A stretch of DNA of 64,000 nt from Citricoccus sp. SGAir0253. Its GTDB lineage: Bacteria; Actinomycetota; Actinomycetes; Actinomycetales; Micrococcaceae. Below are positions 1,072 to 64,000 of this stretch, in pieces (the stretch's first letter is position 1; every line of letters starts with the position of its first letter). A program made the position numbers and the translations under genes. The DNA is taken from the NCBI RefSeq assembly GCF_005877055.1, contig NZ_CP039424.1, positions 1,674,001 to 1,738,000 on the forward strand, in the 5' to 3' direction. The notes under the pieces were generated by a model, which did not search any database, was not told the origin of the DNA, and saw only the letters and a list, made by a program, of their open reading frames with translations.

Positions 1072-3789
1072 ATGGAGTCCCCTGCCGTCCGCGGCCCACG
1101 CCCCGCCGGCGACGCCGCCCGGCCCACGCGGGGTCGGCGGTCCCGGTTGCGCGACTACCCGGCCGTGCTGTGGCTGGTGACCGCCGTCGTCCTCGCCGTC
1201 GTCCACCGAGCGGTCCCCGAGGCCGAGTGGCTGCTCGTGCACCTGGTGCTGCTCGGCGCCCTCGGCCACTCGATCCTCGTCTGGAGCCTCTACTTCGCGC
1301 AGGCGATCCTGCGCGTGCCGGTCAGGGACCGCGAGCGCCGGCACCAGGACCGGCGGATCGGCCTGGTGTTCGGCGGCACGCTCGCGGTGGTCGTCGGCGT
1401 CCCCGGCGGGTGGTGGTGGCTCGTGCTCGCCGGTGCCGCGGTCGTGACCGCGGCCGTGGCGTGGCACGGGGCCACGCTGTGGGGCATGCTGCGGACGGCG
1501 CTGACCGCCCGGTTCCGCATCACCATCCGCTACTACGTCGTGGCCAGCGCGTGGCTGGCCGTGGGGGCCACCGGCGGGGTGCTGCTCGCCCGCGCCCCCG
1601 AGGACCCGTGGCACGGCCAGTTGCTGCTGGCCCACACCATGGCCAACCTGCTCGGCTGGGTGGGGATGACGGTGACGGGGACCCTCGTGACCTTCTGGCC
1701 CACCCTGCTGCGGACGCGGATGGACGACCGCGCCGCGCGGCTGGCCACCCAGGCCCTGCCCGTGCTCACGGGCGGACTCGTGCTGCTGGTGGCCGGCGCG
1801 CTCGTGGGGCAGCGGGAGCCCGCGCTGGCGGGACTGGCCGCCTACGCGGCCGGCCTGGCCTGGTGGGGGCGGGCCCTGGTGCGTCCGGCGCTTACGCGGC
1901 CGCCGCGGGAGTTCGCCGCCGCCTCGGTGGCCTGCGCGCTGTCCTGGGGCGTGCTGGGCCTCCTGGCGGTGGCCTACCTGCTGGCCACCGGCACCGGCTG
2001 GGCCGACCTCGGCGCCCGGTACTCGACGGTCGCCGGGATCTTCGCGGCCGGCTTCGGCGCCCAGCTGCTGCTCGGGGCGCTGAGCCACCTGGTCCCCACC
2101 GTCCTGGGCGGCGGACCGCGCGCGGTGCGCGCCGCCGTCGGGCGGTTCAACACCTGGACCACGGCCCGGCTGGTGGTCGTCAACGGCGGGCTGGTCCTGT
2201 ACCTGCTGCCCGTGCCGAGCTGGGTGCGCGTGTTCGTCTCCGTCACCGTGGTCCTCGCCCTGGCCCTGTTCATCCCGCTGATGTTCCGGGCCATCCGGGA
2301 CAGCATCGCCGTCCGCCGCCGGGAGGCGGCCGCGGCGGGGGGTCCGCGGGCGGACGGGTCCGCCCGTGCCGCGGCACCCGCCGGCGTGTCCCACCCGGCC
2401 GTCCGGCCCGCGTGGTCGGTCCGCCAGCTGCTCGCCGGGCTCGCCGTGCTGGGCCTGGCCGTCTCGGTCGGCATCGGGCTGGACCCCGCGGCGGCGGGGC
2501 TCGCGGTCCCGACGGCGGCCGGCGGGCCGGGCGGCACCGGCACGGGGGCCGGCGCCCCGGTGGAGCCGACGGGCCGGACCGTGCGCGTGGAGGTCTCGGC
2601 GCGCCACATGGCGTTCGTCCCGGCCCGGATCAGCGTGGCCTCGGGCGACCGGCTGGTGGTGGCGGTGACGAACGACGACACCACCACGCACGACCTGGCC
2701 CTGGGCGGCCAGCGGACGCCGCGGCTGGCCCCCGGGCAGGGCGCCGAGCTGGACCTCGGCGTCGTCTCCGGCCCCCTGGAGGGCCGGTGCACGATCGCCG
2801 GGCACGCCGCGCAGGGGATGGTCCTCGCCGTGGACGTCGAGGGCGCCCCGGCGGACGCCCCCGCCACCGGCGCGGGGCCGGCGTCGCCCGTGCCGCCGCG
2901 GGCCGGGGCCCGGCTGCAGGACACGGTGGACCCGGTCCTGCCGCCGCTGACGCCGGACCGGGTCCGCGCGGTGACCCTCACGGTGACCGAGGAGCCCCTC
3001 GAGGTGGCCCCGGGGCAGTGGCAGACGCGGTGGACCTTCAACGGCGGGTCGGTGGGGCCGGTCCTGCACGGGCGGGTGGGGGACGTCTTCGAGGTCACTC
3101 TGGTCAACGACGGCACGATGGGGCACTCCGTCGACTTCCACGCCGGGGCGCTGGCACCGGACCGGCCCATGCGCACGATCCAACCCGGCGAGCGGCTCAC
3201 CTACCGGTTCACCGCCGAGCGCGCGGGGGTGTGGGCGTACCACTGCTCCACCATGCCGATGAGCGCGCACATCGCCGCCGGGATGCACGGGGCCGTGGTG
3301 ATCGAGCCCGAGGGCCTGCCCGCGGTGGACCGCAGCTACCTGCTCGTCCAGTCCGAGGTGTACCTGGCCAACGACGCCGCCTCGGCGGCCCGGGCGCGCG
3401 AGCCCGACGGGGACAAGCTCGCCGCCCAGGCTCCGGACCGGGTGGTGTTCAACGGGATCGCCCAGCAGTACGACCAGGCGCCGCTGCGGGCGCGGGCGGG
3501 GGAGCGCGTGCGCTTCTGGGTGCTGGACGCCGGGCCCAACCGGCCCAGCAGCTTCCACGTGGTCGGCGGACAGTTCGACACCGTCTACCTCGAGGGTGCG
3601 TACCGGCTCGAGCACGGCGTGGACGCGTTCGGCCACCCCGGCAACGGCGCGCAGGCCCTCGGGCTGCAGCCGGCCCAGGGCGGGTTCGTGGAGCTGGAGT
3701 TCCCGGAGGCCGGGCACTACCCGGTGGTCTCGCACGTCATGGGCGACGCGGAGAAGGGCGCCCACGGCGTCGTGGAGGTCTCGCCGTGA
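1072..3789 (+). CDS. Membrane-anchored NirK-type multicopper protein (nitrite reductase-like)
   Basis: The 905-residue product has three parts. Residues about 25-480 are strongly hydrophobic, with roughly a dozen membrane helices and conserved His/Trp positions (for example AHTMANLLGW), recalling NnrS or heme-copper oxidase subunits. Residues about 500-600 form an extra cupredoxin with type 1 copper ligands (HDL, then CTIAGH and GM). Residues about 630-905 match copper nitrite reductase NirK. It has HSVDFH, YHCSTMP with a following His and Met, the FNG segment, and a C-terminal SHVM, which together supply type 1 and type 2 copper ligands. The likely reaction is one-electron reduction of nitrite to nitric oxide outside the membrane, with the extra cupredoxin passing electrons. 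GGAG precedes the ATG. A multicopper oxidase role is the alternative. No nitric oxide reductase gene is nearby. Confidence 0.75.
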   Translation: MESPAVRGPRPAGDAARPTRGRRSRLRDYPAVLWLVTAVVLAVVHRAVPEAEWLLVHLVLLGALGHSILVWSLYFAQAILRVPVRDRERRHQDRRIGLVFGGTLAVVVGVPGGWWWLVLAGAAVVTAAVAWHGATLWGMLRTALTARFRITIRYYVVASAWLAVGATGGVLLARAPEDPWHGQLLLAHTMANLLGWVGMTVTGTLVTFWPTLLRTRMDDRAARLATQALPVLTGGLVLLVAGALVGQREPALAGLAAYAAGLAWWGRALVRPALTRPPREFAAASVACALSWGVLGLLAVAYLLATGTGWADLGARYSTVAGIFAAGFGAQLLLGALSHLVPTVLGGGPRAVRAAVGRFNTWTTARLVVVNGGLVLYLLPVPSWVRVFVSVTVVLALALFIPLMFRAIRDSIAVRRREAAAAGGPRADGSARAAAPAGVSHPAVRPAWSVRQLLAGLAVLGLAVSVGIGLDPAAAGLAVPTAAGGPGGTGTGAGAPVEPTGRTVRVEVSARHMAFVPARISVASGDRLVVAVTNDDTTTHDLALGGQRTPRLAPGQGAELDLGVVSGPLEGRCTIAGHAAQGMVLAVDVEGAPADAPATGAGPASPVPPRAGARLQDTVDPVLPPLTPDRVRAVTLTVTEEPLEVAPGQWQTRWTFNGGSVGPVLHGRVGDVFEVTLVNDGTMGHSVDFHAGALAPDRPMRTIQPGERLTYRFTAERAGVWAYHCSTMPMSAHIAAGMHGAVVIEPEGLPAVDRSYLLVQSEVYLANDAASAARAREPDGDKLAAQAPDRVVFNGIAQQYDQAPLRARAGERVRFWVLDAGPNRPSSFHVVGGQFDTVYLEGAYRLEHGVDAFGHPGNGAQALGLQPAQGGFVELEFPEAGHYPVVSHVMGDAEKGAHGVVEVSP

Positions 3790-3803
3790 GCGGCCCGCGC
3801 CGC

Positions 3804-3809
3804 TAGCCT
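3804..3809 (+). promoter_or_regulatory. -10 box, leaderless VOC gene
   Basis: TAGCCT lies 8 bases before the ATG at 3818, and no ribosome binding site separates them. This fits the actinobacterial leaderless pattern, in which transcription starts at or next to the start codon. Confidence 0.5.
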
Positions 3810-3817
3810 CGGGGCGC

Positions 3818-4258
3818 ATGGGCGTCCAACGGCTCGAGAACGTGGGCATCGTGGTGGAGGACCTGGAGGCGGTGCGCGACTTCTTCGTGGGCCTGGGCCT
3901 GGCGGTCGAGGCGGAGACCTCCGTGGCGGGCGACTGGGTGGACCGGACCCTCGGGCTGGAGGGCGTGCGCGCGGACATCGTCATGCTCCTGACCCCGGAC
4001 GGCGCGGGCCGCCTGGAGCTCTCGCGCTACCGCCACCCGCCGCTGGCGCCGGCCGACCGGCGCCGGGCGCCGAACACGCACGGCTTCTGCCGCGTGGCGT
4101 TCGGGGTGGACGACCTCACCGCGACGCTGGCCACCGCCCGCGCGGCCGGCGCGGAGCTGCTCGGCGAGGTCGTCGACTACGCCGACGCCTACCGGATCTG
4201 CTACCTGCGCGGGCCGGAGGGGATCGTGGTCATGCTGGCGCAGCGGCTGGCGCCCTAG
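3818..4258 (+). CDS. VOC/glyoxalase-fold protein
   Basis: This is a 146-residue protein of the vicinal oxygen chelate (glyoxalase/bleomycin-resistance/dioxygenase) fold. It has paired beta-alpha-beta-beta-beta modules: the first opens LENVGIVVEDLEAVRDFF and the second RVAFGVDDLTATLATARAAG, ending in a YLRGPEGIVVMLAQ strand with the usual Glu metal-ligand region. Length is normal for single-domain members. The substrate cannot be read from sequence; glyoxalase, dioxygenase and epimerase activities all occur in this fold. The upstream frame remains open, but the ATG at 3818 is chosen because TAGCCT lies 8 bases before it and similarity to the fold starts there. It follows the copper protein by 28 bases and has its own promoter. 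Confidence 0.8.
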   Translation: MGVQRLENVGIVVEDLEAVRDFFVGLGLAVEAETSVAGDWVDRTLGLEGVRADIVMLLTPDGAGRLELSRYRHPPLAPADRRRAPNTHGFCRVAFGVDDLTATLATARAAGAELLGEVVDYADAYRICYLRGPEGIVVMLAQRLAP

Positions 4259-4261
4259 GCT
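4256..4261 (+). promoter_or_regulatory. -10 box for the amidase gene
   Basis: TAGGCT overlaps the TAG stop codon of the VOC gene. It would start a short leader, about 45 bases, carrying the GGGAG site ahead of the amidase ATG at 4311. A matching -35 is not obvious. Confidence 0.4.
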
Positions 4262-4310
4262 GGTCCACGCCGGCCGCCTGCCGGCCCCGTGACCGATCGA
4301 GGGAGCCGCG

Positions 4311-5750
4311 ATGACCGACCTGCTGGAGACGGGCGCCGTCGGCCTGGTGGCGATGCTGCGCTCCCGGGAGCTGTCCTCCCGGGAACTCGTCGAGGCGCAC
4401 CTGCGCCGCATCGAGGAGGTCAACCCGGTGGTCAACGCCGTGGTGACCCTGGACCCCGAGGGCGCGCTGGCGGCCGCGAAGCGCGCCGACGCGGCCGCGG
4501 CCGCCGGGCGGCTCCTGGGCCCGTTGCACGGGCTGCCGATGACCCACAAGGACACCCACCGCACGCGGGGGATGCGGACCACGCAGGGGTCCACCGTCCT
4601 CCGGGACCAGGTCCCGCGCCAGGACGACCTGGTCATCGCCCGCCTGCGGGCAGCCGGCGTCGTGACGACCGGCAAGAACAACGTCCCGGAGTTCGCCGCC
4701 GGCTCCCACACCTTCAACGACGTCTTCGGGACCACCACGAACCCCTACGCCCCCGACCGCAGCGCGGGCGGCTCCAGCGGGGGACTCGCCGCGGCCCTGG
4801 CCGCGCGCATCCAGCCGCTGGGCGACGGCAGCGACATGGGCGGGTCCGTGCGGATCCCCGCCTCGTTCTGCAACGTGGTCGGCTTCCGCCCCTCGTACGG
4901 GGTGATCCCCGCGCCGTCTCCCCTCGACGCCTGGCAGTGGCTCGGCCGCACCGGGCCGATGGCCCGGACGGTGGAGGACGTCGCGCTGTTCATGGCCGCC
5001 GTCGCCGGGCCCGTCCCGGAGGTGTCCCCGGCCGCGCCGCTGACGGCGGAGTCGTTCGCCGGGCTGCCGGGGCAGGAGCCCGACGGCGCCCCACTGGGCG
5101 GCGTTCGCATCGGCTGGTCCCCGGACCTGGGGATCGGGATCCCGGTCGAGCCCGCCGTGCTGGCCGTGCTCGAGGCCCGCCTGCGGGTGTTCGAGGACCT
5201 CTGCGCCGTCGTCGAGGAGGCGGCCATCGACCTGCGCGAGGCCGACCGGGTGTTCGCCGCGACGCGGGCGATGCACTTCGCGGCGCACCTGGGGGACGTC
5301 GTGGACGCCCACCCGGACCGGGTCAAGCCGGAGATCGCCTGGAACGTGGAGCAGGGACGGCGGCTCACGGCCCGGGACTGGATCGCCGTGACCGCCGCCC
5401 GGACCCGGCTGCAGCGCCGCGTCCGGGACTTCTTCGCCCGGTACGACCTGTTCCTGACGCCCACGGCGCAGGTCCTGCCCTTCGACGCCACGCTGCGGTA
5501 CCCGGCCTCCGTGGCCGGGGTGGGCTGCGAGACCTACCTGGACTGGATGCGCTCGGCGTGCGTGGTCTCCGCCACCGGGCTGCCGGCCCTCGGCGTGCCG
5601 GGAGGGTTCACGCCCGGGGGGCTGCCGGTGGGGTTCCAGTTCGTCGCCGACCACTTCGACGACGTGCGGCTGTTGCGCTGGGGGCGGGCGTTCGAGGGGG
5701 CGACGGAGGTCTTCCGCCGGCGTCCGGCCCTGTTGGAGCCGGCCGCCTGA
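4311..5750 (+). CDS. Amidase signature-family enzyme
   Basis: This 479-residue cytoplasmic hydrolase has the amidase signature. The Ser-cisSer-Lys triad is visible as Lys about 80 in PMTHKD, the cis-Ser in AGGSSGG near residue 155, and the nucleophile Ser near 179 in DMGGSVRIP. The 24-residue spacing of the two serines is that of the family. It hydrolyses a carboxamide; the substrate is unknown. It is not GatA of the tRNA amidotransferase: no gatB or gatC is adjacent, and the C-terminal half is of the plain amidase type (GVPGGFTPGGLPVGFQ). A GGGAG site precedes the ATG. The gene is transcribed alone between a VOC gene and a convergent small gene. Confidence 0.85.
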   Translation: MTDLLETGAVGLVAMLRSRELSSRELVEAHLRRIEEVNPVVNAVVTLDPEGALAAAKRADAAAAAGRLLGPLHGLPMTHKDTHRTRGMRTTQGSTVLRDQVPRQDDLVIARLRAAGVVTTGKNNVPEFAAGSHTFNDVFGTTTNPYAPDRSAGGSSGGLAAALAARIQPLGDGSDMGGSVRIPASFCNVVGFRPSYGVIPAPSPLDAWQWLGRTGPMARTVEDVALFMAAVAGPVPEVSPAAPLTAESFAGLPGQEPDGAPLGGVRIGWSPDLGIGIPVEPAVLAVLEARLRVFEDLCAVVEEAAIDLREADRVFAATRAMHFAAHLGDVVDAHPDRVKPEIAWNVEQGRRLTARDWIAVTAARTRLQRRVRDFFARYDLFLTPTAQVLPFDATLRYPASVAGVGCETYLDWMRSACVVSATGLPALGVPGGFTPGGLPVGFQFVADHFDDVRLLRWGRAFEGATEVFRRRPALLEPAA

Positions 5751-5810
5751 GCGGCGGTCCAGCAGGTCCCGTCGGGGTGCTCGACGCCGTGCCGGTCGCT
5801 CCGGCGGCGG

Positions 5811-6008
5811 CTACCGCGCGTGCCGTGCCAGCAGCTCCTCGACCGCGTCCGGCCCGGCCTGCCGGAGGTCCCACGAGCCGGTGGTCTCGTGGAAGTCGGT
5901 CGCCGCAGCGGTGAGGTTGAACGCCGCGGCGTCCCGCGGGGGAGTGGAGGTCTCCAGCACGTGGACCAGGTAGGTCTCGGCCTCGGCCAGGGCGTGGGGA
6001 TCGTGCAT
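5811..6008 (-). CDS. Small hypothetical protein, 65 residues
   Basis: A short, mildly acidic, mostly helical protein (begins MHDPHALAEAETYLVHVLE) of no family I recognise. The ATG at 6008 is preferred because AAGGAG lies 6 bases upstream; an in-frame ATG 27 bases earlier lacks this. A TAGGGT box on the - strand (6059-6064) is a plausible -10 giving a leader of about 45 bases. Third-position GC is high, which supports real coding. It contains no Cys and no membrane segment. It lies convergent with the amidase. Confidence 0.6.
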   Translation of the reverse strand: MHDPHALAEAETYLVHVLETSTPPRDAAAFNLTAAATDFHETTGSWDLRQAGPDAVEELLARHAR

Positions 6009-6140
6009 GGCGGCTCCTTCGGTGGACGGGGGCACGGTTTGCCCCTCGGCGTGCCCCGACCCTAGGACAGGCGGCGGGCCCGTGTCAGGGGGAGCGGGCC
6101 GACGGGGCCACCGTGCCGCCGGGGACCCGGCGGGCGCGGT

Positions 6141-7208
6141 TCAGGGCGCTGCGCGGGGCGGGACCGGGGCCAGCTCGGCACCGAGGGCCTCGGCGAAGTC
6201 CCCGGGACGCTGGTCCACCCCGCTGCAGTCGTGCACGGGCGGATGGCCGCCGTCCCCGGGAGGGCAGGGCCGGTCGCGGTCCCGCGACCAGTACGAGACC
6301 CGGCCCACGCCCTGGTCCCGCGCGAACCGGTTCACCTCGCGGGCCGCGTCCAGGTCCAGGACCTCGCCGTCGATGTCGTTCTGCCCGATCATCGGCGTGA
6401 GGCCGATGCGGTGCCAGGCCCGGTCGTCCGCGAGGGACTGGCCCGCCTCGGCGTACAGCGAGCCCACCTGGGGCACCGCGGCGCGGGCGGCGGCCTCCGC
6501 CTGGGCGGCCACGTCCGGGGCGCCCTGGCCGAAGTTCATCGTCATGAGGTTGACCCCCGTCACGTCCACGCCGGCCGCGAGGGTGTCGGCGACGAGCGCA
6601 CGGGCGTCCTCCTCCAGCCCCTCCACGCCGACCGGGACGGTGAGCCACACCTGGAGGGGCCGGTCGGCGGGACGCTGCCGCTGCAGGCGCGCGAGGGCCT
6701 CGCCGCGCCGCGCATTGGCCTCGGAGCGGCCCAGGTCGTCCGCCTCGACGTCCAGGTCCACGACGTCCACCCCGTACCGCTCCACCACCGCCGCGTACGC
6801 GGCGGCCAGGCGGCCGGCGTCCTCGCACACGGTGGCCAGTTCCTGGTGGTGGGCGCCGCCGAACGAGACGGCGACCTCGTCCCCGCCCGCCCGCAGGTCC
6901 CGGACGCGGTCCTCGAGGCCGAGCGTGGCCGCGGCGTCGTCCAGGTCGTGGGCGGCCCCCCACGAGGGGGCGCACGGGTCCTCCGGATCGGCCACCACGA
7001 AGGAGAGCACGGTCGTCTGGGAGGGCGTGCCGGGCGAGTCCTCGGTCACCTGGACGTCGTCGTAGCCGCCGAACCACGGCGGAGCCGGGTCGGCGGAGCG
7101 GCCCGGAGCGGCGCACCCCACCAGGAGCGCGGCCGCCAGCGCGACGACACCGGCGCGGGCCGGCCACCGGGTTCGGCGGCGCCGAGGGCACGGGCGAGCA
7201 CCTGTCAT
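6141..7208 (-). CDS. GH18 chitinase-like lipoprotein
   Basis: The 355-residue precursor has a basic N-terminus, one hydrophobic segment and the lipobox LLVGC near residue 31, so it should be lipid-anchored outside the membrane. The mature part resembles bacterial family-18 chitinase domains. It has the barrel strand VDVVDLDVEA (the DxxDxDxE-type catalytic motif), NLMTMNFG, and a late SYWSRDRD strand. If active it would cleave beta-1,4-GlcNAc or a related amino-sugar polymer. The ATG at 7208 places the signal peptide correctly; the longer open frame upstream is not protein-like. It is divergent, across 224 bases, from a deacetylase/glycosyltransferase fusion, suggesting a shared role in amino-sugar surface polysaccharide turnover (inference). 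Confidence 0.75.
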   Translation of the reverse strand: MTGARPCPRRRRTRWPARAGVVALAAALLVGCAAPGRSADPAPPWFGGYDDVQVTEDSPGTPSQTTVLSFVVADPEDPCAPSWGAAHDLDDAAATLGLEDRVRDLRAGGDEVAVSFGGAHHQELATVCEDAGRLAAAYAAVVERYGVDVVDLDVEADDLGRSEANARRGEALARLQRQRPADRPLQVWLTVPVGVEGLEEDARALVADTLAAGVDVTGVNLMTMNFGQGAPDVAAQAEAAARAAVPQVGSLYAEAGQSLADDRAWHRIGLTPMIGQNDIDGEVLDLDAAREVNRFARDQGVGRVSYWSRDRDRPCPPGDGGHPPVHDCSGVDQRPGDFAEALGAELAPVPPRAAP

Positions 7209-7362
7209 GGGGCCAGCGTGCCCGAGGACGCCCGGCCTGTCCATCGGGCCCGCGGGCGGCGTGGCTCGCCGACCGCAGGCCAGGGCCCGGAGCGTGCCAC
7301 GTCGCCCGCGGGCAGGTACCGGACGAGTACGGACCACGCTGTCCGGCCCCTCCGGGCAGCCC

Positions 7363-7368
7363 TACGTT
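7363..7368 (+). promoter_or_regulatory. Candidate -10 box for the deacetylase/GT2 gene
   Basis: TACGTT lies 64 bases before the GTG start in the divergent 224-base gap. The leader would carry the GGGAGGAG ribosome site at about 7420. No convincing -35 is visible. The rest of the gap shows no other signal. Confidence 0.3.
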
Positions 7369-7432
7369 CCTACTGGAGCACCCCGCGGTACGGGGCCCGC
7401 GGGCGGTCCGTTCCCACAGGGAGGAGTGTCCG

Positions 7433-9901
7433 GTGACACAGGGTCATGCCGGGAGACGCCAGGATCCACCAGGAGGGGGCAGGGGAGGGGCGATGGCCCG
7501 TCGCGCGTCCGCGCGGACGGGGAGCACGGCCCTGCCGCCCGTGTTCTTCGATCCCACGGGCAAGCGCTGGCGCCGGATCCTCACGGTCCTGCTGCTGGGC
7601 ATGGCGCTGGTCAGCGGCCTCGGCGCCTGGCTCGTGGCCCAGGCCATGACCCCTCCCGCCGGGTCCACGCCGGTGGTCAACCAGGACGCGGACTACCCGC
7701 GGGACGTGCTCGCCACGGGCGACGCGGAGCACATCCCGATCCTGGGCACGGAGGCCAATCCCTTCTCCCGCATCGGGCTGGTCCGGGAGGTGGGAGGACG
7801 GACGGTCCTGCAGGACCCGTTCGGCGACGGGGTCCTCCGGACCCTGACGGCGGAGGAGGAGCGGACCGTGGGGGACAGCCCCTACGCCATGGAACGCTTC
7901 GGGGAGGTGCCGGACAAGACCCTCGTGCTGACCTTCGACGACGGCCCCGCCGAGCCCTACACGAGCCAGATCCTCGACATCCTGTCCGCCGAGGGCGTGC
8001 CGGCCACGTTCTTCACGACCGGCAACAGCATCGTCGAGCAACAGGCCCTGTTCCGGCGGATCCTCCGGGAGGGCCACGCGGTCGGCAACCACACCACCAC
8101 GCACACGCTCTGGGACGACTGGACGGTCCTGGACCGGGAGGAACTGATCGCCACCGACCGGACCATGCGTTCCGTGGCCCGCTACGAGTCGCGCCTGTGG
8201 CGCCTGCCCTACGGCGACCCCGACCGCCACCCCCGGCAGCTCCTCGAGGCCCAGCAGCTGGGGTACCTCCACGTGGACTTCGACCTCGACACCCTGGACT
8301 GGCGCGTCCACGGCGACGAGTCCGTGACCGTCCCCGAGCTCGACGGCGCCGGCCATGTGGTGCTGATGCACGACGGCGGCGGGGACCGCAGCCCGACCGT
8401 GGCCGCCGTCCAGGAGCTGGTCGACGAGGCCAAGGCCGCCGGGTACACGTTCACCACCGTGGACGCCATCGTCCCGGACGACGACCCGTCGGCCGCGCCG
8501 GTGGAGTCCGAGCTGGCCGACCACACGACCCAGGTGACGCTCTTCGGCCTGACGGTGGCCCCGGACGTGGTCATGTCCTGGCTGTTCTGGTTCGGCATCG
8601 GGTCCCTGACGCTGATGTCCGCGCTGTACGTGGTCCTGGCTCTGGTGGGGCACCGCCGGCAGCGGAGGCGGGCGTGGCGGCGGATCCCGGAGGAGGAGCT
8701 TCCCCTCGTCTCGGTGATCCTGCCCGTGTTCAACGAGGAGCCCGTGGTCGCCCGCACCCTGGACGCCCTGGCCGCGAGCGACTACCCGCACCTGGAGGTC
8801 ATCGCCGTGGACGACGGCTCCACGGACCGCACCCTGGAGATCCTGCGCGACGTGGCGCGGCAGTGGCCGCAGCTGCGGGTGCTCACCCAGGCCAACGGGG
8901 GCAAGTCCACCGCCATCAACCACGGGCTCATGGTCGCCGCCGGGCAGATCATCGTCACCCTGGACGGGGACACGCTGTTCGAGCCCCAGGCCATCCGGAT
9001 GCTCGCCCGCCACTTCCACGAGCCCGCGGGCGACCGCCCCGTCGGGGCGGTGGCCGGGCACATCAAGGTGGGCAACCGCACCGGCGTGCTCACGATGTGG
9101 CAGTCCCTGGAGTACATCTCCGGCATCTGCGTGACCCGGATGGGGGAGGGGGTCGCCGGGGCGATCACCATCGTCCCGGGTGCCTGCGGGGCCTGGAACG
9201 CCGAGGCCATCCGCGCCGCGGGCGGCTACTCCCACGACACCCTGGCCGAGGACGCCGACCTGACCATGACCCTGCAGGAGCTCGGCTGGGCCGTGGTGCA
9301 GGAGAACGAGGCGGTGGCGTACACCGAGGCGCCGGTGACGGCCCGGGGACTGGCCAGGCAGAGGCTGCGCTGGACCTACGGCAACCTCCAGGCGCTGTGG
9401 AAGCACGCCGGGATGCTGTTCCGGCCACGCTACGGCTTCCTCGGCCTGGTCGCCCTGCCCTACGCCATGCTGGCCACGGTGATCCCGCTGCTGTTCCTGC
9501 CCCTGACCATCCTGATGGCCGTCCTCAACCTCGCCGCGGGGAACTGGCAGCCCCTCGCGGCCTTCGGCGCCCTCGTGGTGGGCATCCACGCGGTCATCTG
9601 CGTCATCGCGATCTGGATGGTCCGCGAGTCGTGGACGCACCTGCTCATCGTGCCCCTGTACCGGGTCATCTACGAGCCGTTGCGCGCCTGGCTGCTCTAC
9701 GCCTCGCTGCTGCAGGCGCTCCGGGGACGGACGGTCGGCTGGTACAAGCCGCCGCGGACCAACACGGTCCTGGACCTGCGCAGCATGGGCGGCGCCGGCG
9801 GCTCCGGGGCCGCGGAGCCCACCGGTCCGTCGCCCTCGGTGGCCGCCTCCGGGGCGCGGAAGCCCGCCCGCGGGGACGGACGCCGGCGGACGGAGCCCTG
9901 A
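7433..9901 (+). CDS. Bifunctional polysaccharide deacetylase / family-2 glycosyltransferase
   Basis: The 822-residue membrane protein has an N-terminal helix at about 45-70. An extracytoplasmic NodB deacetylase domain spans about 160-345, with TFDDGP, HTTTH, RLPYGD and LMHDGGG, so the metal ligands and catalytic residues are present. A second membrane helix lies near 375-400. A processive GT2 domain follows (VSVILPVFNEE at about 425, DGD near 512, EDADL near 606, QRLRW near 643), with more membrane helices at the C-terminus. The GT2 part resembles PgaC/hyaluronan synthases. The protein could polymerise and export an amino-sugar chain and de-N-acetylate it outside. A GGGAGGAG site precedes GTG 7433; ATG 7493 also has a fair site and is the alternative start. 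Confidence 0.85.
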   Translation: MTQGHAGRRQDPPGGGRGGAMARRASARTGSTALPPVFFDPTGKRWRRILTVLLLGMALVSGLGAWLVAQAMTPPAGSTPVVNQDADYPRDVLATGDAEHIPILGTEANPFSRIGLVREVGGRTVLQDPFGDGVLRTLTAEEERTVGDSPYAMERFGEVPDKTLVLTFDDGPAEPYTSQILDILSAEGVPATFFTTGNSIVEQQALFRRILREGHAVGNHTTTHTLWDDWTVLDREELIATDRTMRSVARYESRLWRLPYGDPDRHPRQLLEAQQLGYLHVDFDLDTLDWRVHGDESVTVPELDGAGHVVLMHDGGGDRSPTVAAVQELVDEAKAAGYTFTTVDAIVPDDDPSAAPVESELADHTTQVTLFGLTVAPDVVMSWLFWFGIGSLTLMSALYVVLALVGHRRQRRRAWRRIPEEELPLVSVILPVFNEEPVVARTLDALAASDYPHLEVIAVDDGSTDRTLEILRDVARQWPQLRVLTQANGGKSTAINHGLMVAAGQIIVTLDGDTLFEPQAIRMLARHFHEPAGDRPVGAVAGHIKVGNRTGVLTMWQSLEYISGICVTRMGEGVAGAITIVPGACGAWNAEAIRAAGGYSHDTLAEDADLTMTLQELGWAVVQENEAVAYTEAPVTARGLARQRLRWTYGNLQALWKHAGMLFRPRYGFLGLVALPYAMLATVIPLLFLPLTILMAVLNLAAGNWQPLAAFGALVVGIHAVICVIAIWMVRESWTHLLIVPLYRVIYEPLRAWLLYASLLQALRGRTVGWYKPPRTNTVLDLRSMGGAGGSGAAEPTGPSPSVAASGARKPARGDGRRRTEP

Positions 9902-9903
9902 GC

Positions 9904-9925
9904 GCGGCCCCGGAGGAGGGGCCGC
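9904..9925 (+). terminator. Hairpin terminator after the deacetylase/GT2 gene
   Basis: A perfect 8-bp stem (GCGGCCCC / GGGGCCGC) with a 6-base loop begins 2 bases after the stop codon. There is no T tract, as is usual for high-GC actinobacterial terminators. It ends 8 bases before the dif site. Confidence 0.6.
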
Positions 9926-9933
9926 TCGATGCT

Positions 9934-9961
9934 ACTTGACATAATGCAGCTTATCGGCGCT
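9934..9961 (-). other. dif: dif site, XerC/XerD chromosome-dimer resolution
   Basis: Read on the - strand, this 28-base segment matches the published actinobacterial dif consensus as I recall it. The XerD-side arm TTATGTCAAGT is identical. The XerC-side arm ends in GCCGATAA as in the consensus, with differences in its outer two bases. The 6-base centre, GCTGCA, differs at two positions. The arms and spacing are 11-6-11. The site lies between genes and is far more AT-rich than its surroundings. Dif marks the terminus where XerC/XerD resolve dimeric chromosomes. Gene orientation supports this: genes right of here are mostly on the - strand, and the long genes to the left are on the +. Confidence 0.88.
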
Positions 9962-10070: not shown

Positions 10071-10472
10071 TCAGTACGTGCTGCTGCCCGTGGCCGCGGC
10101 GAAGACCACGACCAGGACGACCAAGATGTACAGGATGGCCAGCACGCCGAACCCGGTGCCGATCCACCCGAGGACCCGGCCCACGGTGGCATCGGCCCCG
10201 GCCCGGCGGGCCTTGTTGGCGTAGTGGATGGCCATCGGTCCGAACACGATGCCGATGGTCACCAGGGCCAGGATGCCGAACAGCATGGCGTACTGGGCGT
10301 CCTTCGCCCCGGGAGCCGGCTGCAGGGCCGGTGCATAGTAGCCGGGTGCGTACCCGGGGGTCGCCGTCTGGCCAGACTGGAGGGGCGGGTACTGGCCGCC
10401 CTGGGCGTACGGCGGCGGGGCGGGGTACGGGTACTGCTGCCCCGGGTGGGGCTCGGGGATGTCCTGGCTCAT
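10071..10472 (-). CDS. DUF4190-like two-helix membrane protein
   Basis: This 133-residue protein has an N-terminal half rich in Pro, Tyr, Gln and Gly (repeated PYP and PGY patterns). Two hydrophobic segments follow at about 60-85 and 100-125, with a short basic cytoplasmic loop containing NKARRAGADATVGRVLGW. This is the pattern of DUF4190 and related proteins of unknown function. The ATG at 10472 is chosen since the similar protein downstream also begins MS and GGAG lies about 9 bases upstream. A TAGCCT -10 box is at 10513-10518 (- strand), within a pair of identical palindromes. It is a paralogue of the product of 10707-11036; both lie next to dif. Function unknown. Confidence 0.75.
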   Translation of the reverse strand: MSQDIPEPHPGQQYPYPAPPPYAQGGQYPPLQSGQTATPGYAPGYYAPALQPAPGAKDAQYAMLFGILALVTIGIVFGPMAIHYANKARRAGADATVGRVLGWIGTGFGVLAILYILVVLVVVFAAATGSSTY

Positions 10473-10494
10473 CACGGTGCTCCGTTCTCGTGGG

Positions 10495-10557
10495 CCCACG
10501 TGGGCCGGTCGCAGGCTACCATGCGCCCGAGGCCCCCGGATCCCCCTCCCACGTGGG
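10495..10557 (-). promoter_or_regulatory. Promoter flanked by two CCCACGTGGG palindromes
   Basis: The 10-base perfect palindrome CCCACGTGGG occurs at 10495-10504 and again at 10548-10557, 53 bases apart (about five helical turns). Between them, on the - strand, lies TAGCCT (10513-10518), the probable -10 of the gene at 10071-10472. One palindrome therefore covers the start of transcription and the other sits upstream of the polymerase site. This is the geometry of a paired operator. The repeats and box are seen; the role is inferred. The remaining bases up to 10706 hold no gene I can support. Confidence 0.5.
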
Positions 10558-11125: not shown

Positions 11126-11464
11126 TCAGACCGCGTTTGACGGGCCGGGCCGCTTCTCCTCTAGCTGCGGGCCCATGGGCTGTGGGGACGATCGCTGCCG
11201 GCGCCGACCGTCACCGGTCCGGGCCTCGCGGATCGTCCCGACCGCCACCAGCTTGGCCGCCTCGAGCCCCGACTGCTCGGAGGCGTACTCCCCCGCCGCC
11301 CGGCACGGACGGTAGCTGTCCCCGCCGCCTGCCGACTCCCCCGGCTCGCCGCTGCCCGCGCGGACCCCGAGGGCCAGGAACGCGGGGTCCGGCGCGGCCA
11401 GGTGCTTCCCCAGGGCGGTGCCTCCCGGGCGCAGTGCCGTTCCGGTCCTGTCCTCCGGAGCCGC
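11126..11464 (-). other. Coding-like frame, 112 codons, continuing past the ABC ATPase stop
   Basis: Directly after the TGA of the UvrA-like gene (11467-11465) the same frame stays open for 112 codons, to a TGA at 11128-11126. The first 90 or so codons have high third-position GC. They read like protein, for example GKHLAAPDPAFLALGVRAG and later YASEQSGLEAAKLVAVGTI. GGAGG occurs a few bases after the stop codon, but no ATG, GTG or TTG follows in frame at a useful distance. It could be a stop-codon-separated C-terminal extension, a gene with an unusual start, or a decayed gene. I recognise no domain. No other gene is visible in the 428 bases between 11036 and 11465. Confidence 0.35.
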
Positions 11465-13864
<2,400 letters not shown>

Positions 13865-13952
13865 CCTGCCACGGCCCGGGCCCGGACCGCAGTCCCGGGA
13901 CCTGGCGGGACGACTCTGGCCAACGGCACGGGCCCGTGTGATCCTGTGGACC

Positions 13953-14633
13953 ATGGAGACGGATACCGCTGCCAGCTTCGACCAGACCACCGAACGCCTC
14001 CCGGCCCACCAGGAGGGGCCCCCGCCCCGGCCGCACGTGGAGGCCTACCGGGCCGCCTCGAACGCGCTGGCCCGCGTCTGCTCCCGGATCACCGACTGGG
14101 AGGCCCCGGGGCTCGGTGAGTGGACCGTCCGCGACCTGGCCGGGCACGTGGACCGGGCGCTCGTCAACGTCACCGCCTACCTCGAGGCCGGCACGGAGCC
14201 GGGGGCGCCGTTCGTGGAGGGGCCCGTGGCGTACTACCGAGCCTTCTGGGGCCGGCACGACGACGAGGGCGTCGCCGAGCGCGGCCGCCTCGCCGGGCAG
14301 GCCCTCGGCGAGGAGCCGGCCATCACGATCGAGCGCGACCGCGTGCTGGCCCAGGCCGTGGTGGACCGCACCCCGGACGACGCCCGGCTGCGCACGCCCG
14401 TGGGCACCATGACCCTGGCGGGGTACCTGCCGACCCGCACGTTCGAGCTGGCCGTGCACACCGCCGACCTGGCCCGCGCCACGGGGCAGGAGGTCCCCTC
14501 GTCCCTGGACGCGGCGTGGCCGGAGGTCATCCGCCTGGCCGCCGAGCTGGCGATCGAGAACGGGCAGGCGGTCGACCTCGTCATGGCCATCACCGGCCGC
14601 GGCACGCTGCCCGAGGGGTTCACGGTCCTCTAG
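13953..14633 (+). CDS. DinB-like / mycothiol-dependent maleylpyruvate isomerase-family protein
   Basis: This 226-residue cytoplasmic protein opens its domain with ASNALARVCSRITDWEAPGLG EWTVRDLAGH. The WTVRDLxxHv segment is the hallmark of the MDMPI N-terminal (DinB-like four-helix) family, and a later His in the FELAVHTADL motif completes the expected metal-binding set. Members use or modify mycothiol in detoxification; two mycothiol biosynthesis genes occur elsewhere in this window. Substrate unknown. The ATG at 13953 is divergent from the UvrA-like gene, 88 bases away. No good ribosome site is present; a degenerate GATCCT lies 7 bases upstream. Confidence 0.75.
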   Translation: METDTAASFDQTTERLPAHQEGPPPRPHVEAYRAASNALARVCSRITDWEAPGLGEWTVRDLAGHVDRALVNVTAYLEAGTEPGAPFVEGPVAYYRAFWGRHDDEGVAERGRLAGQALGEEPAITIERDRVLAQAVVDRTPDDARLRTPVGTMTLAGYLPTRTFELAVHTADLARATGQEVPSSLDAAWPEVIRLAAELAIENGQAVDLVMAITGRGTLPEGFTVL

Positions 14634-14651
14634 TCCGGGCCGGTCGTGGCG

Positions 14652-14657
14652 TAGCCT
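14652..14657 (+). promoter_or_regulatory. -10 box ahead of the ATC-start gene
   Basis: TAGCCT just after the stop of the DinB-like gene would give a leader of about 60 bases. That leader includes a GC-rich inverted repeat (GGCGCCCCC / GGGCGCC around 14672-14694) and ends at the AAGGAG site at 14706-14711. Confidence 0.4.
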
Positions 14658-14718
14658 GCGGCAGGGACCGGCCGGCGCCCCCACGGGCGCCGGGGACGCC
14701 GACCGAAGGAGCACCGTC

Positions 14719-15177
14719 ATCACCGCCGCACACTTCCGGGTCGGGGACCGGGTCGCCGTCCTCGCGGGCCACCGGCGCTTCCCCCGGGCCTCGTACGCGA
14801 CCGTCGAGCGGGAGACCCGGCACCACTGGGTGGTCGACGGCGTCCGCTACCTCAAGTCCACCGGACTGGAGGCCGATCCCCCGGCGTCGATGCCGCCCGC
14901 GCGGCTCGTGGGGGCCGACGACCGGTGGGCGGCCGAGCTCGTCGCGCGGCAGTCCCGCAGCGCCCTGCTCACCCGGCTCGAGGACGCCACCGAGCACCTG
15001 GGCGGCCACCCCGCCGACCGGGAGGCGGCGCTCGCCGTCCTGGAGGCGGCCCGGTCCTACCTCGCCGCGCTCGACGGGGAGCCGGCGCCGGAGGCCCGGC
15101 CGGTGCCCCGGGAGGCCCGGGCCACGGGGGTGCCGGACGCCGCGACGGCCCCCGAGGAGCACGGGCGCCGTCCCTGA
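14719..15177 (+). CDS. Hypothetical protein with probable non-canonical ATC start
   Basis: The coding frame (high third-position GC) runs from 14716 or earlier to the TGA at 15175. A perfect AAGGAG site lies at 14706-14711, yet the codons at the right distance are GTC (14716) and ATC (14719). The first ordinary start in frame is GTG at 14830, which would discard a well-formed N-terminus (FRVGDRVAVLAGHRRFPRA). I therefore place the start at ATC 14719, seven bases after the site, giving 152 residues. The N-terminal 50 residues look like a small beta-barrel (SH3- or KOW-like), and a helical segment follows at about 65-120. The tail is Pro/Ala/Glu-rich. Function not recognised. Confidence 0.6.
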   Translation: MTAAHFRVGDRVAVLAGHRRFPRASYATVERETRHHWVVDGVRYLKSTGLEADPPASMPPARLVGADDRWAAELVARQSRSALLTRLEDATEHLGGHPADREAALAVLEAARSYLAALDGEPAPEARPVPREARATGVPDAATAPEEHGRRP

Positions 15178-43095: not shown

Positions 43096-43156
43096 GGGGC
43101 GCTCAGTCGTCCTCGGCTTCTCGGTGGTGTGGGGGGTGCGGGGGAGGATTCGGGGG

Positions 43157-47392: not shown

Positions 47393-47477
47393 GCGCGAGT
47401 GGCGGAATTGGCAGACGCGCAGCGTTGAGGTCGCTGTGCCCGCAAGGGCGTGGGGGTTCAAGTCCCCCCTCGCGCAC
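47393..47477 (+). tRNA. tRNA-Leu (GAG)
   Basis: The full class II cloverleaf is present. The acceptor stem is GCGCGAG / CTCGCGC with discriminator A. The D arm is GGCGGAATTGGCAGACGC and the anticodon stem CAGCG/CGCTG with loop TTGAGGT (anticodon GAG, 47427-47429). A long variable arm is CCC GCAA GGG and the T arm GGGGG TTCAAGT CCCCC. CCA is not encoded. It reads CUC and CUU. It stands alone between the M20 and PhyH genes with its own promoter and terminator. Confidence 0.97.
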
Positions 47478-61968: not shown

Positions 61969-63049
61969 GATGGGTCCTTCCACGGTGGGTGTCGGTGGTC
62001 AGCTGGCGGACCGCGGCCGCCAGGACCTCCTCGGCGGAGATCCTGCCCAGCAGCGGGTCCAGGGCGGTGCCGTGGGGGTCGCCCCACGGCCCGGCGTCGG
62101 GATCGCCGTGCCACAGCACGGCGTGCAGGTCCTCGTCCACGGCCGGCCCCCACGCGGCGGGCGGCACCGGGCCGAAGAGCACCACGGACGGCACGCACCA
62201 GGCCGTGGCCAGGTGGGCGATGCCGGTGTCCGCGCTCAGCACCAGGCCCGCGTCCCGGACCGCGGCCGAGAGCCCGGCCAGGTCGTGGCGGCCCGTGTGG
62301 TCGTGGACGCCCTCGAGCCCCTCGGCCACGACGCGGCCCAGGGGTGCCTCCGCGGCCGAGCCGGTGACGACCACGCGGTGGCCCCGTCCCGCCAGGCCGG
62401 CGGCCACCGCGCGCCAGCGGCGCGCCGGCCAGTGCCGGGAGGCGGAGGCGGCCCCGGGGTGGAGCACGACGTCGGCCGGGCCGGGGCGCCGGCGCGCCTC
62501 GGCCCGGGGCCGCAGCCGCAGGTCCTCGGGCCCGCAGTCCGCGCCGGCGTGCGTGACGAGGCGGCACCAGCGCAGCACCTCGTGCTCCTCCTCGCGCCAC
62601 GCGGGGCCGGCATGGCCGGCGTCGGCGGAACCGAAGGCGATGAGCCGCTCCGGCCGGGCGGCGGCGAGGAGCCGGTGGCTCGCCGGCCCGCGGCCGTGCA
62701 GGTTCACGGCGACGAGCCCGGCCGGGACGTCCGGCAGCGGCACGAGGCCCGGCAGCGGCAGCACGTCGTCGACGACGCCCTCCCGGGCGAGCAGGCCCGC
62801 CGGCCCCGGGGGGCCGGCGAGCACGATCCTGCGGTCCGGGACCAGCCGACGCAGCCCGCGCAACGCGGCCACCGCCGTCAGCGCGTCGCCGAGGCCCAGG
62901 GCGCGCAGGACGAGCACGTCCCCGGGGCGCAGCGTCCCGGGCGGCCGGCCCGGGGCGGTGTCCGCCCCGCGCGCGGCCAGCCAGTCCGCCGTGTACGGTT
63001 CCGGTCCCGTGCCGCGGTCCCCGGCGCCGGCCACGTCCTCAGCGGGCAT
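61958..63049 (-). CDS. GT9 (heptosyltransferase-family) glycosyltransferase
   Basis: The 363-residue GT-B enzyme has the family opening [20 protein letters not shown] near 47, the middle [20 protein letters not shown], and the late [23 protein letters not shown]. These are hallmarks of ADP-heptose:LPS heptosyltransferases (WaaC/F, GT9). In an organism without LPS the acceptor must be another surface glycan. The start ATG 63049 overlaps the upstream kinase/adenylyltransferase gene by 11 bases, and its own 3' end overlaps the SDR gene; the three are one operon. Confidence 0.87.
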
Positions 63050-64000
63050 CCACGTTCCCCGCGGCGATCCGCTCGACGATGCCCGTGGTGGAGCGCCCGG
63101 GCAGGTAGGGGAGCACCTCGACACGGCCGCCCCAGCCCCGCACGAGCGGGGCCTCCGGCAGGTCCTCGGCGCGGTAGTCCCCGCCCTTGGCCCAGACGTC
63201 GGGGCGCAGCCGGTCCAGGGCGGCCCGGGGGTCGTCCTCCTCGAAGACGATCACCCCGTCCACGTCCCGCAGGCCCATGAGCACGGCCGCGCGGTCCTCC
63301 TGGCCCACGACCGGCCGCGCGGGGCCCTTGAGCCGGCGCACGGAGTCGTCGGCGTTGAGCAGCACCACGAGCACGTCCCCGAGGTCGCGTGCCCGGCGCA
63401 GGGTCTCGAGGTGCCCCGGGTGGAGGACGTCGAAGCAACCGCCCGTGGCCACGACCGTCCCCCCGCGGGCGCGCGTGGCGGCCACGGCGCGCAGCGCGGC
63501 CTCGGCGGGGTCCTCGGTGCTGGGCCGGTCGGCGCCGTCCCGCACGGCGGCGGTGCCGTCGGGCCCGATCCGGCCGTCGCGGAAGGCGGCGGCCCCGCCC
63601 GCGCCGACCCACCGGGCCGCGGCCGTCACGGCCCGGCCGACCGCGCCGTGCACCGAGGTGCCCTCCGCGAGGTGGGTGGCCACGGCGGCGGCGAAGCGGT
63701 CCCCCGCCCCGCAGGGGTCGCTCGAGTCCACGGGCAATGCCGGCACCAGCTCGGCGGCGCCCTCGGAGGCGACGAACGCGCCGCGTGCCCCCGCGGTGAC
63801 GGACACGGCGCCCGCCCGCCAGCCGATCCGCAGGGCCTCCGCGAGGTCCTCGTCGGCGACCTCGGCGGGCACCGTGACGGCGTCCCGCAGGGAGGCCAGC
63901 GCGGCGCGGGCCTCGGCGAGGTTGGGGGTGACCACGGCGCAGCCGGGCACGGGGTCGCACCCGCGCGGGTGCGGGTCCCACACGACGGGCACCCGCTCGG
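63039..64000 (-). CDS. HldE/RfaE-like sugar kinase/adenylyltransferase, C-terminal part (cut by window edge)
   Basis: The visible 320 residues begin inside a PfkB-type kinase domain (TPNLAEARAAL, then VDSSDPCGAGDRFAAAVATHLA with the catalytic Asp in GAGD). They end with a cytidylyltransferase-like domain (VATGGCFDVLHPGHLETLRRA with the HxGH motif, VLLNADDSVRRLKGPARPV, and VWAKGGDY). This two-domain order is that of HldE, which makes heptose-1,7-bisphosphate and ADP-heptose precursors. The 5' end lies beyond 64000. It overlaps the GT9 gene by 11 bases, which supports an ADP-heptose pathway, though heptose use here is inferred. Confidence 0.88.
   Translation of the reverse strand, partial: ERVPVVWDPHPRGCDPVPGCAVVTPNLAEARAALASLRDAVTVPAEVADEDLAEALRIGWRAGAVSVTAGARGAFVASEGAAELVPALPVDSSDPCGAGDRFAAAVATHLAEGTSVHGAVGRAVTAAARWVGAGGAAAFRDGRIGPDGTAAVRDGADRPSTEDPAEAALRAVAATRARGGTVVATGGCFDVLHPGHLETLRRARDLGDVLVVLLNADDSVRRLKGPARPVVGQEDRAAVLMGLRDVDGVIVFEEDDPRAALDRLRPDVWAKGGDYRAEDLPEAPLVRGWGGRVEVLPYLPGRSTTGIVERIAAGNVDAR

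Follow-up and report, generated by a model that had tools for sequence, protein, structure and literature searches.

The predicted chromosomal dif site of Citricoccus sp. SGAir0253 and the orientation of GGGGGAG motifs around dif-like sites of chromosomes and plasmids

Results

Sequence and surroundings of the site

The features identified in the window, by which we mean the whole 64,000-nucleotide stretch of DNA analyzed, are collected in Table 1. The gap between two convergent genes contains a 28-bp sequence which, read directly on the - strand, is AGCGCCGATAA-GCTGCA-TTATGTCAAGT (+ strand, ACTTGACATAA-TGCAGC-TTATCGGCGCT). The gene farther to the right encodes an ABC-type protein that is presumably UvrA-like. 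Gene models 7207–9936, 11211–14723 and 6007–7065 gave no family matches; models 7433–9901 and 11465–13990 did match. A gathering search of the window with Rfam returned one tRNA, the tRNA-Leu at 47393, common to ARAGORN and Rfam; ARAGORN additionally reported a tRNA-Ala and a tRNA-Pro within window positions 62934–63601, both absent from the Rfam search.

Table 1. Features in and around the predicted dif site of the window
Feature	Position	Strand	Basis or remark
Predicted dif site, 28 bp, 11-6-11	9934–9961	-	direct reading, genome search, shuffles
XerD-type arm TTATGTCAAGT	9934–9944	-	sequence
Central hexamer GCTGCA	9945–9950	-	sequence
XerC-type arm AGCGCCGATAA	9951–9961	-	sequence
Left neighbor, polysaccharide deacetylase/family-2 glycosyltransferase, ends 32 bp before dif	7433–9901	+	family match
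Right neighbor, 142-aa ORF, converges on dif	10071–10499	-	ORF; no family match
ABC-type protein (ABC_tran)	11465–13990	-	family match
Four GGGGGAG motifs, starts 3498, 5938, 6088 and 9142	3498–9148	+	all towards dif
31 GGGGGAG motifs right of dif	11288–61321	-	30 on - towards dif, one on + at 43140

The initial annotation had called this 28-mer a dif site, and direct reading bears out the details that it gave: an 11-6-11 layout, an exact TTATGTCAAGT arm, an arm on the XerC side that ends in GCCGATAA, and about four differences from the actinobacterial consensus (4 of the 25 fixed positions). The names XerD-type and XerC-type are those that we take the arms to bear by convention. The description of the site as an AT-rich island between genes was correct in part, in that the site is intergenic and its 28 bp are 53.6% AT, but the surroundings are not AT-rich, the 100 bp centered on the site being only 31% AT. 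Compared with the dif suggested for Frankia alni, as printed in the accessible part of PMC3025954, the sequence shares the 11-6-11 layout and the GCCGATAA and ATTATGTCAAGT cores; unlike actinobacterial dif as given there, it has the center GCTGCA in place of a T-first center, and it departs from the F. alni site at 6 of 28 positions. The core pattern GCCGATAA-N5-ATTATGTCAAGT matches the window once, with 0 mismatches; 100 dinucleotide-shuffled versions of the window gave no match, even at ≤3 mismatches.

Position in the genome and the resolution machinery

The assembly consists of three contigs, C1 (3,323,969 bases), C2 (137,948) and C3 (99,421). The site maps to C1:1,683,934–1,683,961, which is 50.7% of the way round from dnaA and hence roughly opposite oriC; judging from the translations, we take C1 to start with dnaA, followed by dnaN, recF and gyrB. 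Four matches to the core pattern with ≤3 mismatches were found in the genome, namely the site itself (0 mismatches), C2:99,525 (2), C2:2,961 (3) and C3:91,878 (3), and the reversed pattern, used as the control, gave 0 matches in the whole genome. The site is thus the only such match on C1, and no better candidate, which the annotation had named as grounds for abandoning the call, occurs elsewhere in the genome. A single copy on the chromosome contig, opposite the origin, is also the arrangement of actinobacterial chromosomal dif in the available text of PMC3025954.

The chromosome was sampled as 68 stretches (1.36 of 3.32 Mb, dense only near dif). Plain GC skew showed no usable change, the mean being -0.0006 over 34 stretches to the left and +0.0013 over 33 to the right (SE 0.003 each; the stretch holding dif excluded), so that the skew change which the annotation had anticipated near the site is absent and, read literally, this test fails. 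The anticipated change in gene orientation was present in the same sample: the flanking genes converge, and 61% of genes lie on the + strand to the left of dif as opposed to 35% to the right.

The four tyrosine-recombinase matches obtained with Pfam, two of which share an open frame, represent three genes, and C1 carries all of them. For one, the best NCBIfam model is XerC, at 296.1 bits and thus below the TIGR02224 cut-off of 335.15; for a second it is XerD, at 328.1, below the TIGR02225 cut-off of 329.6, and this protein exceeds the cut-off of PRK00283. The third resembles a phage-type integrase by weak scores. One FtsK gamma domain, above its cut-off, is present in the genome. On C2 and C3, Pfam found no tyrosine recombinase, and the dif-like sites of these contigs, if used, would therefore depend on the chromosomal enzymes.

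GGGGGAG motifs switch strand at the site

In the 1.36-Mb sample, on which the heptamer GGGGGAG was both found and first tested (the family-genome counts given below are the independent tests), 440 of 484 copies point towards dif, with 211 on the + and 26 on the - strand of the left arm, and 18 and 229, respectively, on the right arm. The best strand switch falls at C1 1,683,142–1,685,288, that is, from -804 to +1,342 bp of dif (~2.1 kb). This polarity is independent of gene direction, as evidenced by similar counts towards dif in co-oriented genes (182/199), in head-on genes (142/154) and in intergenic or uncalled DNA (116/131). It is weak across the first ~180 kb from dnaA, and the density of the motif is fairly even along the arms, with no rise towards dif. 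Every one of the 15 most polar 8-mers contains GGGGGA or GGGGAG, and CGGGGGAG occurred 265 times on the leading versus 15 times on the lagging strand.

The E. coli KOPS GGGNAGGG showed a weak bias (244 towards dif vs 193 away), which is due to GGGGAGGG (119 vs 39); GAGAAGGG was found 39 times towards dif and 14 times away, and GGGCAGGG, GTGCAGGG and GGGAAGGG had no bias towards dif in the chromosome sample. The weak bias of GGGNAGGG on C1 is a difference from KOPS as portrayed in the accessible portion of PMC5993296. GGGGGAG itself is already known, as part of published actinobacterial architecture-imparting sequences: according to the available part of PMC2830990, which cites Hendrickson and Lawrence (2006) for such motifs, G(A/T/C)GGGGGA and (T/C)GGGGGAG were used to place dif in Corynebacterium aurimucosum. 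The present motif, contained within (T/C)GGGGGAG, shares with architecture-imparting sequences and KOPS, as described in excerpts of PMC2830990 and PMC5993296, that it is G-rich, strand-biased and convergent on dif.

Conservation among family genomes

The core pattern was present with ≤2 mismatches in 95 of 100 family genomes (the present genome included), and the reversed control gave 2 matches in all of them together. When the 117 listed sites were sorted by center, a class T..[AG][CT]A, defined after inspection of the site list, accounted for a single site apiece in 93 genomes, with no genome having two. The remaining 24 sites, in 19 genomes, include the GCTGCA of our chromosome, and among the 95 genomes with a match only the present genome and G049 lack a site of the T class. 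The present site hence has typical arms and an unusual center, and the class is typical of the family and not required. The center of one relative (G001), TCTGCA, is one base from GCTGCA, and the G-first centers recorded in 32 stretches of genome contigs, almost all actinobacterial, indicate that such centers exist elsewhere. A non-T center is not always off the chromosome, as shown by secondary sites with the centers GCTATC (G005) and GGTACC (G065), whose contigs measure 3.74 and 4.38 Mb, respectively.

The comparison with family dif sites that the annotation had proposed agrees with the call. Within ±20 kb of dif in ten other family genomes (two of the genus and eight of other genera), 174 of 177 GGGGGAG motifs point towards dif, the remaining 3 pointing away, and this 7-mer ranks first in the genus as well as in the eight other genera; at 12 further sites, called chromosomal from their center, 106/106 motifs within ±10 kb point towards dif. 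A homolog of the ABC-type protein lies ≤20 kb from dif in 6 of the ten genomes, on the same side once dif is read in a common orientation; the other four of five window proteins were not found near dif in these ten genomes.

The small contigs C2 and C3

The dif-like site of C2 (99,524–99,549; L002) is AGCGCCGATAA-GTTACC-TTATGTCAACT and that of C3 (91,877–91,902; L004) is AACGCCGATAA-CGAACG-TTACGTCAACT, so that the central hexamers of C2, C3 and the chromosome all differ. On C2, the best GGGGGAG convergence (97,805–103,561) brackets the site, and 4% of the contig equals it; on C3 the site scores equal to the best convergence point, but a fifth of the contig is equally good. Permutation values, with the site fixed, were 0.013 for C2 and 0.003 for C3. 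When the motif is relaxed, the C2 site is close to the best point of its contig and the C3 site falls below that of its own; for GGGGGA the best convergence is at 101,679–103,562, just past the C2 site, and elsewhere on C3. The motifs diverge from 85,945–87,437 on C2 and 49,077–49,905 on C3, and within about 120 bases of these points lie the sole ParA-type (CbiA) matches of the two contigs, C2:87,310–87,435 (partial) and C3:50,024–50,731. This agreement was not built into the analysis; the putative ParA role is taken from the family match.

The right flank of a third, degenerate site at C2:2,961–2,985 (L003) resembles that of the C2:99,524 site as well as the end of the recombinase element described below; this third site is perhaps a relic.

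Plasmid-borne and secondary sites

A query with the C2 site (center GTTACC) retrieved 33 plasmid records, of which all 27 actinobacterial ones were counted and the six non-actinobacterial ones left out. Within 5 kb of the site, 74 of 87 GGGGGAG motifs point towards it; 24 plasmids lean towards the site and none away, with one tie and two without a motif in this range. Random positions in the same plasmid loci gave a fraction of 0.555 (sd 0.078; highest of 4,000 draws, 0.786). The set includes near-duplicates (two C. bovis plasmids; Gordonia YC-JH1 and G. sihwensis; and Paenarthrobacter pA and AT5, which have several proteins in common), so the effective number is lower than 27. The XerD arm is poor in the C. 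bovis, Gordonia JH63 and R. antarcticus plasmids, and the common ...ACC ending of the centers is partly a result of the search, since the query center was GTTACC. As for other G-rich heptamers at these sites, five gave counts from 15/37 to 24/42 towards the site, and GGGGAGG, which can overlap the motif, gave 36/52.

The effect was weaker at 20 secondary sites in family genomes, which include our own C2 and C3 and leave out, for example, G006:C29, G049:C12 and G039:C83, and which on relatives' contigs are candidate plasmid-borne sites. Within 10 kb, 73 of 101 motifs point towards the site, a value not beyond every random draw (mean 0.55, sd 0.055; highest of 5,000 draws, 0.734), and within 5 kb 48 of 60 do; G093 (0/1), G096 (0/1) and G084 (2/8) go against the polarity.

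The actinobacterial dif-like site also occurs, exact, in 17 viral contigs (L226–L242), which may be phages or elements using Xer for integration. Phage records gave 70 weak matches, and the best among the 20 listed was Arthrobacter phage Hirko (27/31 bases covered, 88.9%).

A recombinase element beside dif in relatives

An alignment of 3,232 bases at 99.4% identity links two different sites, in Citricoccus G005 and G006. About 3.2 kb of it, lying past the XerD arm and one variable base, constitutes the element. Its products are a 376-aa tyrosine recombinase (Phage_integrase) and a longer protein that is recombinase-like but has no Pfam match; in plasmid copies the annotated proteins are an integrase, a helix-turn-helix regulator and a third one. 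Homologs of the 376-aa protein were found in 12 separate places; 11 (two being fragments) are no more than ~650 bp from dif or a dif-like site, and the twelfth is at a distance of 9 kb. This proportion is not a rate, as the loci had been chosen for dif and most are without a homolog. Either flank of the site can carry the element, and in three cases, Paenarthrobacter pCZY, G096 and G005, both do, the second copy of G005 being partial.

It was seen in several actinobacterial genera and plasmids (L155 in G005, L161 in G006, L162–L164 in G007, L245, L246, L252 and L255). In G007, of the same genus, only its end is visible, at contig ends, and a dif-like site lies 112 bases from a contig end, as it does in Citricoccus zhacaiensis NZ_BMLQ01000013.1. 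No homolog of the recombinase was found in the own-genome loci around the window's dif.

In having a mobile element beside dif and dif sites on plasmids, this situation is like that of the IS1202 family, whose members, in the excerpt available from PMC10132070, are DDE transposases located 5 bp from the XerC arm; unlike these, the present element carries a tyrosine recombinase, a different enzyme class, and is found at either flank of the site. Our search of the open PMC literature found no published tyrosine-recombinase element targeting dif in Actinobacteria.

Discussion

Positions 9934–9961 are almost certainly the chromosomal dif, where linked daughter chromosomes would be separated. The sequence is unique on C1 and lies opposite dnaA, the polar motif switches strand there, the site is conserved in the family, and genes assigned to XerC, XerD and FtsK are present. 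Counted against the call were the lack of a GC-skew change, the GCTGCA center, the sampling of the chromosome, the weak polarity near dnaA, and the fact that only one of five window proteins was found near the dif of relatives, and this in 6/10 genomes. The call is secure by computation, and the site is ordinary in kind.

The process by which the site would act can be outlined. An odd number of crossovers after replication would join the sister chromosomes into a dimer; septal FtsK, guided by GGGGGAG-type motifs on both arms, would move the terminus DNA until it reached XerCD bound at dif, whereupon its gamma domain would switch on XerCD recombination and the dimer would be separated. The binding and cleavage by XerCD, the resolution of dimers at this site and the reading of the motif by FtsK are what we infer.

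Among other explanations, one accepts the site as dif and takes GGGGGAG to be a Chi-like recombination signal or a by-product of replication bias, and not a guide for FtsK. Chi-like signals are also strand-biased. The fairly even density of the motif along the arms would suit such a role, and FtsK binding to GGGGGAG is itself presumed from polarity. However, the switch falls within ~2 kb of dif, and the motifs also point towards plasmid dif-like sites (74/87), where five of six other G-rich heptamers reach 41–57% and the sixth, the partly overlapping GGGGAGG, 69%. We consider this explanation unlikely, although one to be taken seriously.

Alternatively, an integrated plasmid or mobile element could have brought in a dif-like site, with the true chromosomal dif lying elsewhere; the G-first center does have parallels at certain secondary sites within the genus (GTTACC, GCTATC). 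Against this, C1 has no other site at ≤3 mismatches, the motif switch falls exactly at dif, no mobile gene was seen among the neighboring ORFs tested, the dif-associated recombinase has no match in the own-genome loci around dif, the ABC-type gene accompanies dif in 6/10 family genomes and the G001 center is one base away. This alternative is largely refuted, and we regard it as very improbable. That the match, only 28 bases long, fell between genes by chance is practically negligible, given the empty shuffles and genome-wide reversed control, and is refuted by the polarity switch, which is independent evidence, together with the conservation.

With the 28-mer taken as the chromosomal dif, the plasmid pattern and the recombinase element beside dif in relatives are more interesting than dif itself. 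On balance, we lean towards the view that actinobacterial plasmids of ~50–450 kb, C2 and C3 included, use the late segregation machinery of the host: each would have its own dif-like site where GGGGGAG motifs converge, with the motifs spreading from the partition gene, a center differing from that of the chromosome, and a tyrosine-recombinase element that lands there. The loose placement on C3 makes this view slightly less likely. The differing centers could keep the replicons from fusing by Xer recombination.

A comparable arrangement, a plasmid-borne Xer site in a region of converging motifs, is described for enterobacterial FtsK-dependent Xer sites in the accessible part of PMC11724359, which reports significant KOPS clustering at the Xer site in 41% of enterobacterial plasmids above 75 kb and an FtsK-dependent mode that is obligatory only above 250 kb in Enterobacteriaceae; here, by comparison, the pattern is seen on 27 actinobacterial plasmids of 52–450 kb and on own contigs of 99 and 138 kb. 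Such polarity at dif is reported for large replicons in the available text of PMC13342612, and within the open PMC literature we found no published report of converging motifs at the dif sites of actinobacterial plasmids.

The confirmed dif anchors the replication map of the Citricoccus sp. SGAir0253 genome, and the comparison gives a simple route to locating the terminus in high-GC actinobacteria where GC skew fails. If the polarity on plasmids is general, plasmids of this phylum may rely on FtsK and XerCD even at 50–150 kb.
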